This document shows positions 37,241 through 53,644 of a stretch of 64,000 nucleotides of DNA, piece after piece; position 1 is the stretch's first letter, and the number at the start of each line of letters is the position of its first letter. Source of the DNA: Sphaerochaeta sp. (GTDB lineage Bacteria > Spirochaetota > Spirochaetia > Sphaerochaetales > Sphaerochaetaceae); NCBI GenBank assembly GCA_022482495.1, contig JAKVPA010000001.1:434001-498000 (forward strand), written 5' to 3'. A program made the translations under genes and the position numbers. The notes beneath the pieces were generated by a model. That model made no database searches and was not told the origin of the DNA. It worked only from the letters and a program-made list of their open reading frames with translations.

Positions 37241-38537
37241 TTACTTCAAAATGGCGTTTCCTTGATCCATGATGGCTTTCACGCCCTCATCCAGGCTGAC
37301 CCGCTTCATCAGGATAGCCATGGACTGGTCACGTACCATCTTCAGGAACTCACCAGCCTTCGGTGGATCCGGAGGATCAATGGCGCTGGAGTTGTCCGCC
37401 ACGTGTCCGACGTAGGCGAAGATCTCCTGGTTGACCTCATTGAGTTTGCCTGACATGTTCTCCCGGACTTTGGTGGCGACAGGAACGCCACGCTCGCCAA
37501 GCAAAATGTCGTTCATGGCGATGTCATTGGTGAATGCGCTGATGAATTTCGCCGCTTCATCCGGGTTCTTTGCCGAAGCAGGAATGGCGAAGAACATGGA
37601 TGCTTTGAGGAACGTGCCTTTCTTTACCGGGTTTTTGATCAACGGCAACAGCGCCAGCTTCAATGGACGGTTGGCACCCGCCTGATAGGCGACGAACTGG
37701 TTGGACCACAGCCACTCGACCCAACTGCGTCCTTTGGCGAACTCGGATTCGGCGGGCGTCGTGTTGACGAACGCGATCTCCGGGTCGATCAGGGCACCGG
37801 CATCCAACAGTCTGAGCTGAATGGCGTAGTACTCCTTCAGGACGGAAGGATCGGTAAAGCCGAGTCCGCTGCCATTGGGATTGTACGTGGCCGCTCCGCT
37901 CTGACGGATCAGGTTGTCGAAACCGACCTTCGGATCGGTGGCAAAGAACGGCATCGTCTTCACACCAGTCTTCTGGTAGATGGTCAGCGCGATCTTCTCA
38001 AAATCCTCCCACGTCCAGGTGGTGTCATCCGGCTCAGGAATGCCGGCGGCTTCAGCACGGCGGGATCATAGGTCAGACAGACCGCATTGGATCCCAAGGT
38101 TGACGCCGATACAGCTTCCCGTTCACCTTTCCTGATTCCAAGAACGATGGATTGACGTCAGACAGGTCGATCACTCCGCTCTTCACATAGTCATCCAGCG
38201 GTTTCAGCTGGTTGCGTTTGACCCACTGCAACATGTAAGCATAGTCGTGCTGCATCAGATCGGGCAACGAACCGGCAGCAGCCTGGGTGTTCATCTTGTC
38301 CCAGTAGCCGGACCATCCGGTGGTTTCCGTCTCAATCTTCACTTCCGGATGCTGTTGCATGTACAATTCCGCAGCTTTGATGGTACGCTCATCACGCGTG
38401 GGATTCCCCCACCATGCAAGCCGCATCGTCGTAGGCTCATCCGCCTTTTTCGCCGTGCTTTCACCCGAACCTTGGGCGAACACCGCAGTGGCAGCCAGCA
38501 ACAAGACCGACACCACAACACACCATTTTCTCTTCAT
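37241..38537 (-). CDS. Sugar ABC transporter substrate-binding protein, rhamnogalacturonan operon (two frameshifts)
   Basis: About 432 residues, SBP family 1. Signal peptide MKRKWCVVVSVLLLAATAVFA followed by QGSGES; then MRLAWWGNPTRDERT, the typical LYMQQHPEVKIETETTGWSGYWDKM, and C-terminal AAKFISAFTNDIA and GERGVPVATKV. Between 38053 and 38103 two single-base shifts interrupt the frame; the correct reading TLGSNAVCLTYDPAVLK bridges them. GGAGGA precedes the ATG at 38537, 13 bases after the GH28 gene. With the two permeases at 41.9-43.7 kb it forms an importer lacking its own ATPase, as is usual for MsmX-dependent systems. Confidence 0.87.
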
Positions 38538-38550
38538 AGTTCCTCCTATT

Positions 38551-39828
38551 TTAATGCGTATCCACGCATTGATTTCCTTGATACGGTATCTTTGCCCCAT
38601 CAATCCACACCTCCTCCATCGTACAGGAACCAACCCCTTTGATGGACAGATGGTGGGGATCGGCATGCTCCGTCTCCTCAAACCGGTCGTGGCGTGACAG
38701 GGACGCATCCCCTCCCTTGGCTGTGGTGATACGCACACGGCGTATCTCCAACCCTTCCACCACCGTCTGGGGAGGATCAGCCAAAATCACCCCGGGACTT
38801 TTCACGTCCGTCGCGGTGACATCCTGTACGACAAGCCCCCGGATGACAGAAGGCAACCCCTTTCCCAACACCTCATCCTGCCGGCTGATCCAAGGACGGA
38901 TGGAAAACACCCACCCGTCCTGCATGGTGATCTGTTCAAACCGAATTCGTTCAAACAACTGGTCGGTGTCCTCACGGAACTTGAACCGGACCAGCTGGTT
39001 TTCCCCGGTCACGTTCATGTCCCGGATGGTCACGTCGGAAACCCGGCACGCTTCGCTGCCGAAGGTCACCACACCATGCCCGAATCCCACGGTACATCGC
39101 TCGACGAGAATGTCGCTGGTAGGGGGATTGACCAGATGGGCGTCCGGTCCTTTTCCGCCTTTCAGGCAGATGCAGTCGTCATCCACACTGAAGGTGCAAT
39201 CACGGACCACCACATGACGCGACGCGTCAAGATCGATTCCATCGGTGGATGCTGCCCTGACCGGTCCATGCGGCGAGGTGACGGTAACTCCTTCCACCAC
39301 GACCTGCTCACAGTCGTACAGATGGATGTTCCAAAAGCCGGAATTCACCAGATGAACGTTCCGGATGGTGATGTTCCGTCCATGGGCGACATACAGCAAA
39401 CGGGGACGCGGGACATCATGGTTTACGAACGGTCTCCCCGCCTCGATGGCTTCTTCCCGCTTCTTCCAGAATTCCGCATAGAACGGAATCCCATTCCCGT
39501 CCAACGAACCCGTTCCGTCCAACACAAAGTGTTCCGCATCGATGACATTCAGGAGCGCGTCCGGCCATAGGGCGGTACGCCCTTCATACCGGGTTTCCCG
39601 TATCGGATAGTCCTTGATGTCCGCGCTTCCTTTCAACGTCCCATCAATAGTAAGGTTCACCCCATGGGGGACCATCAAGGCACCGGAGCAAAACGTGCCC
39701 TTGGGAACATACAACGTCCCGCCTCCCCCTGCCGCAAGGGAGTCAAACGCCTTCTGGATGGCATCCGTCTGTACCAGCGTGTCATCTGGTTGTATTCCGA
39801 AGCTGCACAGATCAAGCATCCGGTTCAT
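38551..39828 (-). CDS. Glycoside hydrolase family 28 (polygalacturonase/rhamnogalacturonase type)
   Basis: 425 residues forming a right-handed beta-helix. The GH28 catalytic motifs are all present: STDGIDLDAS, the paired Asp in SVDDDCICLKGG, the His in GFGHGVVTFGS and the substrate-binding RFKFRE. N-terminal block FDSLAAGGGGTLYVPKGTF is typical. No signal peptide, so it should act in the cytoplasm on imported oligosaccharides, probably releasing galacturonate from rhamnogalacturonan fragments. The ATG overlaps the stop of the GH105 gene (ATGA). Confidence 0.9.
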   Translation of the reverse strand: MNRMLDLCSFGIQPDDTLVQTDAIQKAFDSLAAGGGGTLYVPKGTFCSGALMVPHGVNLTIDGTLKGSADIKDYPIRETRYEGRTALWPDALLNVIDAEHFVLDGTGSLDGNGIPFYAEFWKKREEAIEAGRPFVNHDVPRPRLLYVAHGRNITIRNVHLVNSGFWNIHLYDCEQVVVEGVTVTSPHGPVRAASTDGIDLDASRHVVVRDCTFSVDDDCICLKGGKGPDAHLVNPPTSDILVERCTVGFGHGVVTFGSEACRVSDVTIRDMNVTGENQLVRFKFREDTDQLFERIRFEQITMQDGWVFSIRPWISRQDEVLGKGLPSVIRGLVVQDVTATDVKSPGVILADPPQTVVEGLEIRRVRITTAKGGDASLSRHDRFEETEHADPHHLSIKGVGSCTMEEVWIDGAKIPYQGNQCVDTH

Positions 39829-47234: not shown

Positions 47235-48218
47235 ATGGAATATTCCCAATTCATTGCACAATTTTCCGTTCTGAATGAGGAAGAGCTTGCCTATGAAGCA
47301 CTGTGGAAACAAGGAAAGCTCCCCCCGTTCCCGTCGTTCATCGCCCTGAGCGGTTCGGGTCTGGCGGACATCACGCTGGGGGACAGGCTGTTCTTCCCTA
47401 CAGACGACGGCAGGGACTGCCATGTGGAAAAACACACCCGATTCCTTCCCTCCTACATCCATGACCACCAGTTCCTTGAGATGGAATTCGTCATGAAAGG
47501 TTCCTGTGTCCAGGAGGTATACGGGAGGAAATTCCTGTTGGAAAAGGGCGATGCGATCATCATCGCGCCGCATCAGTACCATGCCATCTCCGTGGATGAC
47601 GAGAAGAGCATCGTGATGAATGTCCTGGCGAAGAGCACCATTCTGGACACGTTGCTCCCTCCGTTCTCCGAGGGGACGTCACCGCTGTGCGAATTCTTCG
47701 CGTCGTTGTTGGGACGCAAGCCCCTCTGCCCCTGTGTGGTGATCCATCATGCAGAGGAGACGTTTCCCCTCATCGCGCGACTATATCAGGAAGGGGGTCG
47801 GAGCAATCTGTTCTCCCTGTCCCTGCTTGCCCAGATCCTCTCCTTGCTGTTGTTGGTTCCCCAAGGGGATGTACAGTTCATCGACCAAGGCGAGGTGAAG
47901 GACAACCGGATCACCGCCATCCTCCACTACATCCGCGAGAATCCCGACCGCACCACGCTCTCCACCCTGGCCGAGGCGTTCGGCCTGACCCCGGCGTATC
48001 TGTCCGCGTTGATCAGGCAGTCCACCGGCTCGACGTTCTCCGCGCTGCTTCTCAGGCGCAAGATGGAGATCGCCCTGTCCCTGCTGGCCTCCGGTACGGC
48101 CACCTGTGGAGAAATCGCCCAGAAGATCGGATACGGAAGCGCCCAGCATTTCTGCCGGACGTTCCACAAGTGGTATGGGATGACCCCGATGGCGTACCGC
48201 CACAGTCAGGGCAGGTAG
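47235..48218 (+). CDS. AraC family regulator of rhamnose genes
   Basis: 327 residues. The N-terminal cupin domain (SYIHDHQFLEMEFVMKGSCVQEVYGRKFLLEKGDAIIIAPHQYHAI) binds the inducer. The C-terminal pair of helix-turn-helix motifs comprises TLSTLAEAFGLTPAYLSALIRQSTG and ATCGEIAQKIGYGSAQHFCRTFHKWYGMTP. It is divergent from rhaB and next to rhaM, hence the probable rhamnose-responsive activator. Its 3' end overlaps rhaM by 13 bases tail-to-tail. Confidence 0.92.
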   Translation: MEYSQFIAQFSVLNEEELAYEALWKQGKLPPFPSFIALSGSGLADITLGDRLFFPTDDGRDCHVEKHTRFLPSYIHDHQFLEMEFVMKGSCVQEVYGRKFLLEKGDAIIIAPHQYHAISVDDEKSIVMNVLAKSTILDTLLPPFSEGTSPLCEFFASLLGRKPLCPCVVIHHAEETFPLIARLYQEGGRSNLFSLSLLAQILSLLLLVPQGDVQFIDQGEVKDNRITAILHYIRENPDRTTLSTLAEAFGLTPAYLSALIRQSTGSTFSALLLRRKMEIALSLLASGTATCGEIAQKIGYGSAQHFCRTFHKWYGMTPMAYRHSQGR

Positions 48219-48750: not shown

Positions 48751-48779
48751 TTGACAAATGCGAAAAGTCGGTGTACAAG
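48751..48779 (+). promoter_or_regulatory. Promoter of the second sugar ABC operon
   Basis: TTGACA (48751-48756), 17 bases, TACAAG (48774-48779). Predicted start near 48786, giving a leader of about 143 bases. The 180 bases between here and the rhaM promoter show nothing else. Confidence 0.6.
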
Positions 48780-48788
48780 ATAACTATA

Positions 48789-48907
48789 GTCGTGTACGTT
48801 AACGAAAAAGGAAGTTGTGGTGGGATAACGTACACGACAGCCAAAACGGTGACAGCACGGTGCGTTTCCGTTTTGGTCCAAGGAGCGCAGTTTAGCCGTC
48901 AGGCTAA
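48789..48907 (+). promoter_or_regulatory. Structured leader with three successive hairpins (candidate cis-regulatory RNA)
   Basis: Hairpin 1: GTCGTGTACGTTA (48789-48801) with TAACGTACACGAC (48826-48838), 13 perfect pairs. Hairpin 2: CCAAAACGG (48841-48849) with CCGTTTTGG (48868-48876), with GCAC/GTGC nested in the loop. Hairpin 3: TTAGCC (48892-48897) with GGCTAA (48902-48907). The ribosome site AGGAGG starts at 48917. The long arms could instead be paired protein-binding sites. Confidence 0.65.
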
Positions 48908-48928
48908 TGATATTTCAGGAGGTTCATC

Positions 48929-50068
48929 ATGAAAAAGGTAGGATTGTTGGTACTTTGCGTACTGCTCGCCTGTTCCTTCGTGTTCGCGAATGGACAAGGA
49001 GAGAAAAGCAGCGCGGCAGCGAAGAAACCGTTGATCGGCGTCTCCATCTGGAGTTCGACCGATACGTTGGGCAGCCAGTGCAAGTTGATCCTTGACGCTG
49101 CGGCAAAGGCATTGGACGTTGACATCATGTATGTCGACCAGGGACATATTTCCGAACAGGTCACCGCGTCGGCGGAAACGCTCAGCGCGGCGGGATGCGA
49201 CGGCATCATCATCTGCAACTCGGCATCCGCAGAGATGACGTCGGTCATCAACACCTGCACGGAGAACAAGGTGTACGTCGCCCAGTTCTTCCGGGCCATC
49301 AACCAGAAAGACAACCCCAACGAATACGCGCTTGCCTTGAAGTCTCCGTACTACGTCGGCACGGTGCATGAGAACGAGATCGACAACGGCAAGAACCTTG
49401 TCAAGATCCTCTGCGACAAGGGAGCGAGGAAGATCGCTCTGGAAGCGTGGGAAGCGGGTGACGCGACGTTCCTGCTCCGCTGGCAGGGTTACAAGGCCGG
49501 TATCGAAGCCTGGAACAAAGAGCATCCCAATGACAAAGCGGTTCTGCTTGATCCGCAGTACGGCGGCACCACCTCTGATACGGGCAGAGCCACGGCGGAA
49601 GCCATCATCAACGCCAATCCGGACATCGACGCCCTGATCGTCGCTGGTGGCGGCGGGGACACGCTGGTCGGAGCATTGGCAGCCATCGATTCGATGGGGC
49701 TGAAGGGAAAGATCAAAGTCGTTTCCACCGACTTCCTGGCCGACCTGGACAAACAGCTGGCCACCGGTGGCATGGCCGCGGAGTCCGGCGGGCACTACTG
49801 CGATCCGCTGTTCGCGTTCATGCTGGTGTACAACACCATCAAGGGAAACTACAAGACATCGACCAATTCGTTCTACGAGATCAACTTCCCGTACCTGTAC
49901 GTCTCCTCTCCTGAGGATTACGCCGCGTACGCCAAGTACTTCGTCGATGATCTTCCGTACAATGCGGACGAGCTTCGCGAGATGGCCACGCTCAGCGTGG
50001 AGGATCTGACCAAGAAGGCTGCTTCGCTGTCCATCCAGGACGTGCAGAGCCGCCGCAGTGGCAAATAA
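48929..50068 (+). CDS. Sugar ABC transporter substrate-binding protein (probable rhamnose)
   Basis: 379 residues. Signal peptide MKKVGLLVLCVLLACSFVFA then NGQGEKS. Periplasmic-binding-protein type 1 (RbsB-like): KKPLIGVSIWSSTDTLGSQ, VDQGHISEQVTASAETLSAAGCDGIIIC, ALIVAGGGGDTLVGALAAIDSMGLKGKIKVVSTDF. Located next to rhaM and the rhamnose regulator, so L-rhamnose is the likely ligand, though another sugar cannot be excluded. AGGAGG precedes the ATG. Confidence 0.88.
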   Translation: MKKVGLLVLCVLLACSFVFANGQGEKSSAAAKKPLIGVSIWSSTDTLGSQCKLILDAAAKALDVDIMYVDQGHISEQVTASAETLSAAGCDGIIICNSASAEMTSVINTCTENKVYVAQFFRAINQKDNPNEYALALKSPYYVGTVHENEIDNGKNLVKILCDKGARKIALEAWEAGDATFLLRWQGYKAGIEAWNKEHPNDKAVLLDPQYGGTTSDTGRATAEAIINANPDIDALIVAGGGGDTLVGALAAIDSMGLKGKIKVVSTDFLADLDKQLATGGMAAESGGHYCDPLFAFMLVYNTIKGNYKTSTNSFYEINFPYLYVSSPEDYAAYAKYFVDDLPYNADELREMATLSVEDLTKKAASLSIQDVQSRRSGK

Positions 50069-50187
50069 CCGGTAACAAACCGAAACGTGGGGCCGCGTCG
50101 CGGCCTCACGTCGTCTTTCCGTCGTGAAACAGGGAAACGCCAGGATACCTTGCCTTGACGCCTCCCCGCTTCGCATTGGTGGCATAC

Positions 50188-51153
50188 ATGAACGATGCAA
50201 TGAACAGATTCCAGAAAAACAGATTCTTCGGCCTGATCGTGCTGGTCGCCATGGCCGTTCTGTTCTGGGCGTTTTTCAAAATCCTCTCCCCTTCCAACTT
50301 CGGAACGGGAAAGCTGTTGGTAAGTTACCTGCAGACCAGCATCCAGTACGCCGTAGGAGGCTGCGGTCTGTACTTCATCGTCGTGATGGGGTTGTTTGAC
50401 TTCAGCATCGGCGCGAACATCGTCCTCTCCTCCCTGGTCGGCGTCCTGCTTTCCCGGCAGTTCGGCTACTGGGGCTTGGTGCTGGGATGCCTGATCTGCG
50501 GCACGTTGATCGGAGCGTTCAACGGCGTGCTGTACTCCAAGTTGCGCATCCCTTCGATGATCGTCACCGTCGGCCTGATGCTGGTGCTGGAAAGCGTCGC
50601 CAACTACGTGGTGGCGCTGGACACCTCCGGATTCCCTGGAAAACTGACCAGTCCGAACATCCTGGCGCTGAACCATGCGCCCTGGAACTACATCGTCGCA
50701 GGCCTGGCGTTTCTTTCCGTGGTGTTCATTTTGCGGTACACCAAAATCGGGACGTACTGCAACGCCATCGGGAGTAATGAGTATGTGGCGAAGAACATGG
50801 GCATCGACGTGGAGAAGTACAAGTTCATCGGATTCGTCCTGCTCCACTTCTTCGTCGGCGTGATGGCGCTTCTGACCGTCAGCTACGGCAAAGGCATGCA
50901 GGCGGTTACCGGCATGTCTTCCATGGACCGGAACTTCAAACCCCTGATGGGTACGTTCTTCGGTATCGCCTTCAAGAAATACGGGTACCCGGTGACGGCG
51001 ATCGTCATCGGAGAGTTCATCATCACGATGATCTTCAACGGACTGGTGGCGTTGAACGTTCCGACGACGATCAACGACTTCGTCACCGGTGCGGTGCTCC
51101 TGATCATCGTCACCCTGACCAACCGCGGCCGGATCGGCAGCGTGGTGAAATAG
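50188..51153 (+). CDS. Sugar ABC transporter permease (RbsC type, first)
   Basis: 321 residues with eight or more hydrophobic segments: FFGLIVLVAMAVLFWAFF, VGGCGLYFIVVMGLFDFSIGANIVLSSLVG, and GTFFGIAFKKYGYPVTAIVIGE. The Met at 50188 is preferred to 50155 because the extra 11 residues lack a ribosome site. The 119-base gap after the binding protein may reduce expression of the membrane parts relative to the binding protein. Confidence 0.9.
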   Translation: MNDAMNRFQKNRFFGLIVLVAMAVLFWAFFKILSPSNFGTGKLLVSYLQTSIQYAVGGCGLYFIVVMGLFDFSIGANIVLSSLVGVLLSRQFGYWGLVLGCLICGTLIGAFNGVLYSKLRIPSMIVTVGLMLVLESVANYVVALDTSGFPGKLTSPNILALNHAPWNYIVAGLAFLSVVFILRYTKIGTYCNAIGSNEYVAKNMGIDVEKYKFIGFVLLHFFVGVMALLTVSYGKGMQAVTGMSSMDRNFKPLMGTFFGIAFKKYGYPVTAIVIGEFIITMIFNGLVALNVPTTINDFVTGAVLLIIVTLTNRGRIGSVVK

Positions 51154-51163
51154 GAGCCAACAT

Positions 51164-52660
51164 ATGGAAGAACAGTTTCTGCGATCAGAACAGCTGAACA
51201 AATATTTTGGCATCACCCATGCTGTCAAGGATGTCTCCTTAGGATTCCACCGTGGCCAGATCCATGGCTTGATCGGTGAGAACGGCTCGGGCAAGTCGAC
51301 CTTCTGCTCGATGCTCTGCGGCATCTACTCCATCTCCAGCGGCAAGTTCGTGATGAATGAAAATGAATTGACCGTCAAATCCCAGGTTGAGGCGAACCGA
51401 AGCGGCGTGTCGATCATCGTCCAGGAGATGGGCACGCTCTCCGGCCTGACCGTGGCGGAGAACATCTTCCTCGGCGAGGAAGACCGATTCATGCACGGCA
51501 TCATCAAGAACACCGCCGAGATGAACAAGGAAGCGCAACGCCTGCTGGATTCCTACGGATTTTCCCGGATCAAAGCTCCGGTGATGATCGACCACTACAG
51601 TTTCGAGGACCGCAAGCTGGTTGAAATCGTCAAGGCGACGTACTTCAACCCCCAGGTGGTCGTGGTGGATGAGACCACGACGGCGTTGAGCCAGGAAGGC
51701 CGGAAGGAGTTGTTCAAGGTGATGGAGCGGATCAAAGCGCAAGGCAACACCGTCATCTTCATCTCCCACGACCTCAGCGAAGTATTGGAACACACCGACT
51801 GCATCTCCATCCTCCGGGACGGAGAGCTGGTAGGCACGGTGGATAGCAAGGATGTGACGGTGGACGACCTGAAACGGATGATGGTCGGCCGGGAACTGGG
51901 TGGACGGTACTACCGGACCGATTACGGTGAGCCGGTCTCTTCCGATCCGGTGCTCATCGCTTCCCATGTCTCTGTCCCGGGACAGCTCCAGGACATCTCG
52001 TTCACCCTGCACAAAGGGGAGATCCTGGGAGTCGGAGGCTTGTCCGAGTGCGGCATCCATGAACTGGGCAAGGCGGTATTCGGCGCCTCCTACGGAAGGA
52101 CAGGATCGGTCACGCTGGGAAACGGTGTGGCCATCACCTCAATCCCCCAGGCGATCAAGAGCAGCATCGCTTATGCGTCCAAGGACCGTGACAACGAGTC
52201 TGTGGTGCTGGCCGACACGATTGGCGAGAACATCTGTCTTCCTTCGCTGGACAAGCTGGCGTCCCACCACCTGCTCAGCCGGAAGAAGATGCGTTCGTTC
52301 GCCCAAAAACACGCCACGCTGATGAGCGTCAAGATGACCGGCATCGACCAGTATGTCTCCGATCTTTCCGGCGGAAACAAACAGAAAGTCGTTTTGGCCC
52401 GTTGGCTTGGCAGGGGCTCGGACATTCTGGTGCTGGACAGCCCGACACGGGGCATCGACGTCAAGGTCAAGGCGGACATCTACGCATTGATCTCCGACCT
52501 GAAGAAACAAGGGAAGTCGATCATCATGATTTCCGAAGAGATTCCGGAACTGCTGGGGATGAGCGACCGCATCCTGATCATGAAGGATGGAAGGATCAAC
52601 GGGGAATTCCTCAGATCCCAGAAGCTTGGCGAAGAAGATCTGATCGCCAAGATGGTGTAA
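51164..52660 (+). CDS. Sugar ABC transporter ATPase, double-domain (RbsA/RhaT type)
   Basis: 498 residues with two ABC domains. Domain 1: GLIGENGSGKSTFCSML, signature region YSFEDRKLVEIVKATYF (degenerate), VVVDETTTALSQEG. Domain 2: LGVGGLSECGIHELG (degenerate Walker A), LSGGNKQKVVLARWLGRG, ILVLDSPTRGIDVKVKADIY. One composite ATP site appears canonical and the other degenerate, normal for this family. Spaced 10 bases from the permease. Confidence 0.92.
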   Translation: MEEQFLRSEQLNKYFGITHAVKDVSLGFHRGQIHGLIGENGSGKSTFCSMLCGIYSISSGKFVMNENELTVKSQVEANRSGVSIIVQEMGTLSGLTVAENIFLGEEDRFMHGIIKNTAEMNKEAQRLLDSYGFSRIKAPVMIDHYSFEDRKLVEIVKATYFNPQVVVVDETTTALSQEGRKELFKVMERIKAQGNTVIFISHDLSEVLEHTDCISILRDGELVGTVDSKDVTVDDLKRMMVGRELGGRYYRTDYGEPVSSDPVLIASHVSVPGQLQDISFTLHKGEILGVGGLSECGIHELGKAVFGASYGRTGSVTLGNGVAITSIPQAIKSSIAYASKDRDNESVVLADTIGENICLPSLDKLASHHLLSRKKMRSFAQKHATLMSVKMTGIDQYVSDLSGGNKQKVVLARWLGRGSDILVLDSPTRGIDVKVKADIYALISDLKKQGKSIIMISEEIPELLGMSDRILIMKDGRINGEFLRSQKLGEEDLIAKMV

Positions 52661-52672
52661 GGAGACGAACGC

Positions 52673-53644
52673 ATGACGGAACATACACGCAATACCGCAA
52701 CCAATGAGATGAAAGTGAAGTGGTGGGAGCTTCCCTGGCTGAGAAGCTTCATGCCGCTGTTCGGATTCATCGCCATCATCGTGGTCTTCTCCATCCTGAC
52801 GGACGGGAAAATCATTCGGCCGAGGAACATCAATCTGATGCTCAGCCAGGTGTACGTCCTGATGATCGCCTCGATGGGAGTCTTCATGATCATGACGGTG
52901 GGAGGCATCGACTTCTCCCAAGGTTCGATCCTCGGACTCTCCTCCATCATCTTCTGCTGGGTTTCCCAGCGGAGCATCGGACTGGGAATCCTCGCCGCTG
53001 TGGCGGCGGGAGCCGCCATGGGCTCCTTCAACGGGCTGTTCCACGTGAAGTTCAAGATCGCCTCGTTCATCGTGACGATCTGTACGATGTACCTGTTCCG
53101 CGGACTGTGCAAGTACATCACCACCAGCGGACCGGTACCGGCCAGCGTGGACGTGGTGGCACTCAACCAGACATGGCTGAAAGTACTGCTCACCATCGTT
53201 GTGCTGTCCATCGGCTTCTTTATCTTGCATTTCACCCGGGTCGGGCATGACCTCCATGCCATTGGAGCGGGAGAAACGGCGGCGCGGTTCTCCGGATGTC
53301 GCCCGGATCTCACCAAGTTTCTGGTCTTCACCGCATCTGGAGCCATCACGGGCTTTGCATCGTTCATCAACGTGATCAAGGTAGGCTCCATCACCGGTAC
53401 GGCCGGAAGCCAGTTGGAAACGCAGATCCTCATCGCCCTGGTGCTTGGAGGCATGCCCATTTCCGGTGGCGCCAAGTCGCGGTTCTCCAACATCATCATC
53501 GGAACGCTCACCTACTCTGTCCTGGAGAAGAGCCTGCCGATGATCTTCCCCGTCTCCGCCACCCAGCAGTTGGTCAAAGGCATCGTCTTCCTGATCGTCG
53601 TCGCCTTGACCATCGACCGGAAGTCGCTTCGGGTGATCAAATAG
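52673..53644 (+). CDS. Sugar ABC transporter permease (RbsC type, second)
   Basis: 323 residues. MIASMGVFMIMTVGGIDFSQGSILGLSSII matches the RbsC core, with GSQLETQILIALVLGGMPISGGAKSRFSNIIIGTL near the C-terminus. With the other permease it forms a heterodimeric channel, as in the RhaP/RhaQ arrangement. The operon ends in a terminator 22 bases further on. Confidence 0.92.
   Translation: MTEHTRNTATNEMKVKWWELPWLRSFMPLFGFIAIIVVFSILTDGKIIRPRNINLMLSQVYVLMIASMGVFMIMTVGGIDFSQGSILGLSSIIFCWVSQRSIGLGILAAVAAGAAMGSFNGLFHVKFKIASFIVTICTMYLFRGLCKYITTSGPVPASVDVVALNQTWLKVLLTIVVLSIGFFILHFTRVGHDLHAIGAGETAARFSGCRPDLTKFLVFTASGAITGFASFINVIKVGSITGTAGSQLETQILIALVLGGMPISGGAKSRFSNIIIGTLTYSVLEKSLPMIFPVSATQQLVKGIVFLIVVALTIDRKSLRVIK

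Follow-up and report, generated by a model that had tools for sequence, protein, structure and literature searches.

The leader of a sugar importer operon in Sphaerochaeta sp., the second sugar ABC operon in the 64-kb stretch of DNA that was analysed (hereafter the window), can be drawn as three hairpins between promoter and ribosome-binding site. The question that it raises is whether such pairing belongs to an RNA that acts in cis, as one part of the original prediction had it, or to binding sites in the DNA for a regulator of sugar uptake. The three stems are not one single thing, and the answer differs between them.

Layout of the leader and the extent of pairing

The promoter consists of a -35 element TTGACA (48751-48756, plus strand) and, after a 17-bp spacer, a weak, probable -10 TACAAG (48774-48779, plus strand), which was absent from a consensus promoter scan that demands a T at position 6. 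Transcription probably starts at ~48786, and with such a start all three stems would fall inside the transcript. Stem 1 is a 13-bp perfect inverted repeat with a 24-nt loop (48789-48801/48826-48838). Stem 2 has perfect arms of 9 bp (48841-48849/48868-48876), which as RNA would extend to 10 bp (48840-48849/48868-48877, spanning 48840-48877 on the plus strand) around an inner hairpin, with no U-run after it. Stem 3, with 6-bp arms and a 4-nt loop (48892-48897/48902-48907, plus strand), ends ~10 nt 5' of the Shine-Dalgarno sequence AGGAGG (48917-48922, plus strand), which is followed by the ATG of the binding-protein gene at 48929 (plus strand). The TTGACA, the 13-bp stem, the 9-bp stem with its nested hairpin and the 6-bp stem that had been predicted are all present in the sequence.

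The operon, all on the plus strand, encodes a sugar substrate-binding protein (Peripla_BP_4; 48929-50068), a permease (BPD_transp_2; 50155-51153) whose true start may lie downstream of the listed TTG, a sugar ABC ATPase (51164-52660) and a second permease (BPD_transp_2; 52673-53644). The substrate is not fixed by NCBIfam models and is predicted to be L-arabinose from the gene neighbourhoods of relatives. The operon adjoins a rhamnose cluster of mutarotase, rhamnulokinase, isomerase and aldolase genes with an AraC-family regulator (47235-48218). By eye, the binding protein of the first sugar ABC operon (37241-38738, minus strand) appears to be split over two frames (38073-38738 and 37241-37963) in a frameshift-like manner.

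Apart from stem 1, the whole window has no perfect inverted repeat that reaches 12 bp with a loop of 40 nt or less; when the window was shuffled 20 times with its dinucleotide content kept, one shuffle produced a 13-bp perfect repeat. The folding energy of the leader gave a z score of -4.3 (200 shuffles), with z of -4 or below in 6 of 900 window tiles. Stem 2, at 9 bp, shares the window with nine other perfect stems of at least 9 bp and a loop of up to 20 nt, and its 39 nt gave a z of -3.67, whereas the region of stem 3 (z -0.63) was on par with shuffled sequence. The claim that pairing of this density is unusual in the window therefore holds clearly for stem 1 and moderately for stem 2, which carry it in that order, and fails for stem 3.

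Operator-like sites in stem 1 and elsewhere in the genome

The most plausible reading of stem 1 is as a LacI-family operator, GTGTACGTTAAC, present twice in inverted orientation. Read as DNA, the arms yield the 12-mer in both directions, GTGTACGTTAAC at 48792-48803 on the plus strand and GTGTACGTTATC at 48824-48835 on the minus strand, and the GTKWACGTWMAC core is a CG-centred palindrome within a site of ~16 bp, of the LacI type. The predicted operator O1, TCGTGTACGTTAACGA (48790-48805, plus strand), is centred on 48797.5, or ~+12, while the predicted operator O2, its inverted copy with core GTGTACGTTATC (48822-48837, minus strand), is centred on 48829.5, or ~+44; stem 1 is formed by the outer parts of the two. 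The distance between centres is 32 bp, approximately three helical turns. Relative to the promoter the centre of O1 lies at +12.5, downstream of the -10 and overlapping the start region.

Support for the two copies is unequal. A symmetric weight matrix was trained on eight LacI-gene promoters from other genomes, using the best consensus-like 16-mer of each; these 16-mers were chosen with a consensus written after the window and the relatives had been seen, so that the independence of the matrix extends to its sequences but not fully to its conception. O1 was the top match in the 64-kb window at 17.7 bits, compared to 15.4 for the best of 20 shuffles. O2, which has an exact GTGTACGTTANC match and one mismatch in the core, ranked fourth at 10.9 bits, which is inside the shuffle range and not significant alone. 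The suggestion of paired operators was thus right for the 13-bp stem, as LacI-type, CG-centred palindromes just past the -10.

Exact matches to GTGTACGTTANC number four in the 2.25 Mb of the organism's own genome, namely O1, O2 and one copy each on contigs 2 and 7. The copy at C2:257177 is flanked by a TTGACA/AATACT promoter on one side and a sugar-isomerase gene (Fucose_iso_C) on the other. That at C7:62232 follows a TTGACA/TACAAT promoter and precedes an ABC ATPase frame that is truncated, then two permease genes and araA, whose product matched the NCBIfam L-arabinose isomerase model at 707 bits against a cut-off of 622. A further copy with one mismatch (C2:252329) is situated 17 bp 5' of a LacI-family gene, the candidate AraR-like repressor (contig 2, 251295-252311; G000:C2), after which follows an FGGY sugar kinase gene. 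The predicted regulon includes arabinose catabolic genes, with araA behind the contig-7 site and araA, araD and araB beside the regulator in relatives; no site was listed near the organism's own araD (C2:271244) in the pattern scan of its genome. The one-mismatch pattern was not enriched over a reversed control in the own genome (19 vs 22), nor was the site pattern in most genomes taken whole, and the argument therefore rests on the position of the copies.

Two other stretches were noted in passing. The ATPase of the contig-7 araA operon (G000:C7:61535-62293; L144:9536-10294, minus strand) retains the C-terminal half only (profile positions 277-491 of YtfR), with the promoter and site directly upstream, either because part of the gene is truly deleted or because the assembly is broken there. 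The same stretch occurs near two contig ends (G000:C8:119174 and G000:C12:30816), as a repeat or an assembly overlap, and by eye carries a single GTGAACGTAAAC site ahead of a reading frame that resembles phosphofructokinase.

The position of the copies also bears on the original choice of binder, which was the adjacent AraC-family rhamnose regulator (47235-48218). It is true that this gene and the rhamnose genes adjoin the importer, but the motif is missing from the promoter regions of rhaB/AraC and rhaM, where the best matrix scores were -2.3 and 4.0, respectively, compared to 17.7 in the leader, so that the idea fails its simplest test. The site moreover lies downstream of the -10, where activator sites are not typically found, and it follows the LacI gene and the arabinose genes. 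For AraC-type rhamnose regulators, in addition, the motifs are reported to be symmetric as tandem repeats (PMC3870299). That the repeats are operators of the rhamnose regulator is consequently very improbable.

Sites and folding in the leaders of relatives

Relatives with an orthologous locus were mostly Treponema and other spirochaetes, followed by Lachnospiraceae and Succinivibrio. A total of 80 loci were covered; the matrix was applied to at most 300 nt upstream of each, and the core pattern to at most 450 nt. Eighteen loci were titled Spirochaetaceae, Spirochaetales, Spirochaetes or Treponema; one with 40 nt upstream (L004), from a genome without a LacI orthologue, was dropped and the remaining 17, together with the window, G123 and G060, made up a spirochaete table of 20. 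The leader of L146 is identical in sequence to that of L007 and was counted once. Nine of the 20 spirochaete leaders bear the site (window, L003, L005, L006, L007, L014, L026, G123 and G060), and the top matrix score among the other 62 loci was 11.2 (L064). A TTGACA was also found upstream of the site in most of the relatives' leaders. Where a promoter could be called, in seven of these leaders, the first site was centred between +6.5 and +16.5; none was called for L084. The weakest site was that of the L007 leader itself, which was caught by a looser consensus and missed by the one-mismatch core scan, the latter detecting at this locus only a stronger copy that lies towards the divergent LacI gene. 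Five orthologous Treponema leaders without a LacI-type site (L009, L011, L016, L017 and L018) were seen by eye to have another palindrome-like stretch after the -10, approximately TTGAT...ATCAA, which suggests a different regulator at these loci.

Two sites are present in five of the nine site-bearing leaders, with centres 32 bp apart in the window, 21 in L005, 20 in L006, 21 in L014 and 20 in L026, and a single site in the other four. The paired sites match better as inverted copies in the window, L006 and L026 and better as direct copies in L005 and L014. Within the operator reading these counts bear on whether O1 alone is functional, with O2 and the perfect 13-bp pairing being a decayed or recent duplicate of no role. 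The score of O2, inside the shuffle range, and the sufficiency of a single site in four relatives are consistent with this, but the recurrence of two sites at spacings near whole helical turns argues for a role of the second, and the exact identity over 13 bp suggests upkeep or recent copying; a functionless O2 is accordingly considered unlikely, if the least unlikely of the alternatives.

The same leaders provide the evidence on whether the RNA itself regulates, the 13-, 10- and 6-bp stems controlling how the transporter mRNA is elongated, how stable it is or how well it is translated. Every stem would be transcribed, the leader as a whole and stem 2 fold better than shuffled sequence, and strong folding is likewise seen for the leaders of L006, L026 and L014 (z -6.4, -6.3 and -3.5, respectively). 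However, strong folding of these three is explained by the ability of two near-palindromic sites to pair as RNA, and the leaders of L003, L005, L007 and L084 gave z scores of only -0.6 to -1.7. The L145 leader has a z of -2.9, from other hairpins. The relatives' leaders do not align, and since four of the nine have one site they have no long stem, so that conservation tracks the DNA sites and not RNA pairing. Pairing was not conserved across the homologous leaders, stem 1 being absent from the four with one site and no homologue being found for stem 2. When Rfam 15 covariance models were run on the leader, a check proposed at the outset, the best score was 14.5 bits, where the cut-off is 50, and nothing credible was obtained at gathering or permissive thresholds. 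The notion of a cis-acting RNA thus finds for stem 1 neither a fitting family nor a stem in every site-bearing leader.

Little more was found for stems 2 and 3. The search for further copies in the own genome yielded one weak 27-nt match (E 0.05) in apparent coding sequence, which was rejected as chance. A search for DNA similar to the leader in 61 genomes gave only one other match, in G001, which falls on the first part of the coding region and outside the leader, and no homologous stem 2 or 3 was seen in relatives. Folds of the G123 and G060 leaders have strong hairpins of other sequence between the operator and the Shine-Dalgarno sequence. A hairpin resembling stem 3, of 5-6 bp with a 4-nt loop, lies 10-11 nt before the Shine-Dalgarno sequence in the window, L003 and G123 (L145), with differing sequences. 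As a general conserved feature such a hairpin, found in 18 of 33 loci vs 10.2 expected and partly made by the operators, is suggestive only. A terminator scan listed stem 3, with the tail TGATATTTCA, a poor T run, and did not list stems 1 and 2, neither of which has a trailing U-run. Stems 2 and 3 may be incidental or may be leader structure that stabilises the mRNA. Taken together, control by the leader RNA alone is improbable, and an equally small chance is given to a double device, in which inverted operator copies would be kept also to fold as a 5' RNA hairpin that, with stem 2 and the hairpin before the Shine-Dalgarno sequence, tunes mRNA stability or translation.

A LacI-type candidate regulator and its known parallels

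Orthologues of the contig-2 LacI-family protein were detected in the genomes of all eight site-bearing relatives (35-39% identity, E 8e-64 or better), and in three of the 11 site-less spirochaete genomes (L010, L012 and L015; 34-37% identity, E 3e-48 or better). The orthologue is thus present in nine of nine site-bearing and three of 11 site-less genomes (Fisher p 0.0014, with relatedness ignored). A search of eight genomes from the other 62 loci included two that gave only distant matches, of 23-24% identity. The site is found in the own promoter of ten of the 12 LacI orthologue genes, that of the own genome included, and in the remaining two cases (G123 and L003) the gene is behind araD. The helix-turn-helix, GVSIGTVDRVLHNRG in most, is closely alike among the orthologues and unlike in the ten other LacI proteins of the genome, the nearest being L138.

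The gene neighbourhoods point to arabinose. In L003 araA-araD-lacI is divergent from the transporter, in L007 araA directly follows the transporter, in G123 the order is araA-araD-lacI with the site in front, and in G060 lacI is followed by araB, the ribulokinase gene. Each of the nine site-bearing genomes has an AraA, that of G164 being partial, and AraA is lacking from the genomes of L012 and L015 (G172 and G174). In the L012 genome (L149; no AraA_N match) the LacI orthologue appears by eye to be divergent from an apparent binding-protein gene with a similar site, which suggests a changed substrate there.

Some observations count against this assignment. The genome contains ten other LacI-family matches besides the contig-2 gene, and in L010, L012 and L015 the LacI orthologue is present while the orthologous leader is without the site. 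The importer genes also adjoin the rhamnose cluster, which leaves control by rhamnose a small probability. Nonetheless, with the sites recurring at the organism's own arabinose genes and after the -10 in relatives, and co-occurring with the LacI gene, O1 and O2 are very probably an inverted pair of LacI-family operators at which the contig-2 AraR-like protein would repress the L-arabinose importer until released by an arabinose-derived signal. In such a lac-like working the repressor would bind O1 over the start region and would also occupy O2, three helical turns downstream, aiding the binding to O1; when bound it would block initiation or early elongation of the importer operon.

The analysis predicts a site and a regulator for the sugar importer beside the rhamnose cluster and names its probable substrate; in doing so it sketches a LacI-type regulon for arabinose in spirochaetes. 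It also carries the caution that adjacent palindromic operators can mimic an RNA hairpin. A literature search, covering titles and abstract openings with most subscription journals outside its coverage, returned no spirochaetal LacI-type arabinose regulator.

Parallels in other bacteria are available. In the E. coli lac system the primary operator O1 lies near +11 and repression is strengthened by auxiliary operators spaced 92 or 401 bp from it; the position of the primary operator is like that of O1 in the leader (~+12), whereas the spacing there is 32 bp. AraR of Corynebacterium glutamicum ATCC 31831 is a LacI-family protein that reportedly represses arabinose genes via promoter palindromes; it belongs to a different phylum, and the likeness is one of protein family and proposed mode of action. 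AraQ is a LacI-family arabinose regulator of bifidobacteria whose sites, inferred by comparative genomics, are described as preceding araBDA, araE and the gene for AraQ itself, and also araFGH in some other actinobacteria, with sites downstream of the -10 being read as repression (PMC5928203). The same account has AraQ also controlling central glycolysis genes (PMC5928203); its lineage differs from that of Sphaerochaeta. RhaS/RhaR-type AraC regulators resemble the locus in that the window too has an AraC-family gene beside rhamnose genes, but they differ in the tandem-repeat motifs reported for them (PMC3870299), the leader having a CG-centred palindrome. LacI-type control of arabinose genes is an ordinary and already known kind of regulation, and stem 1 is best read as belonging to it and not as a new regulatory RNA.
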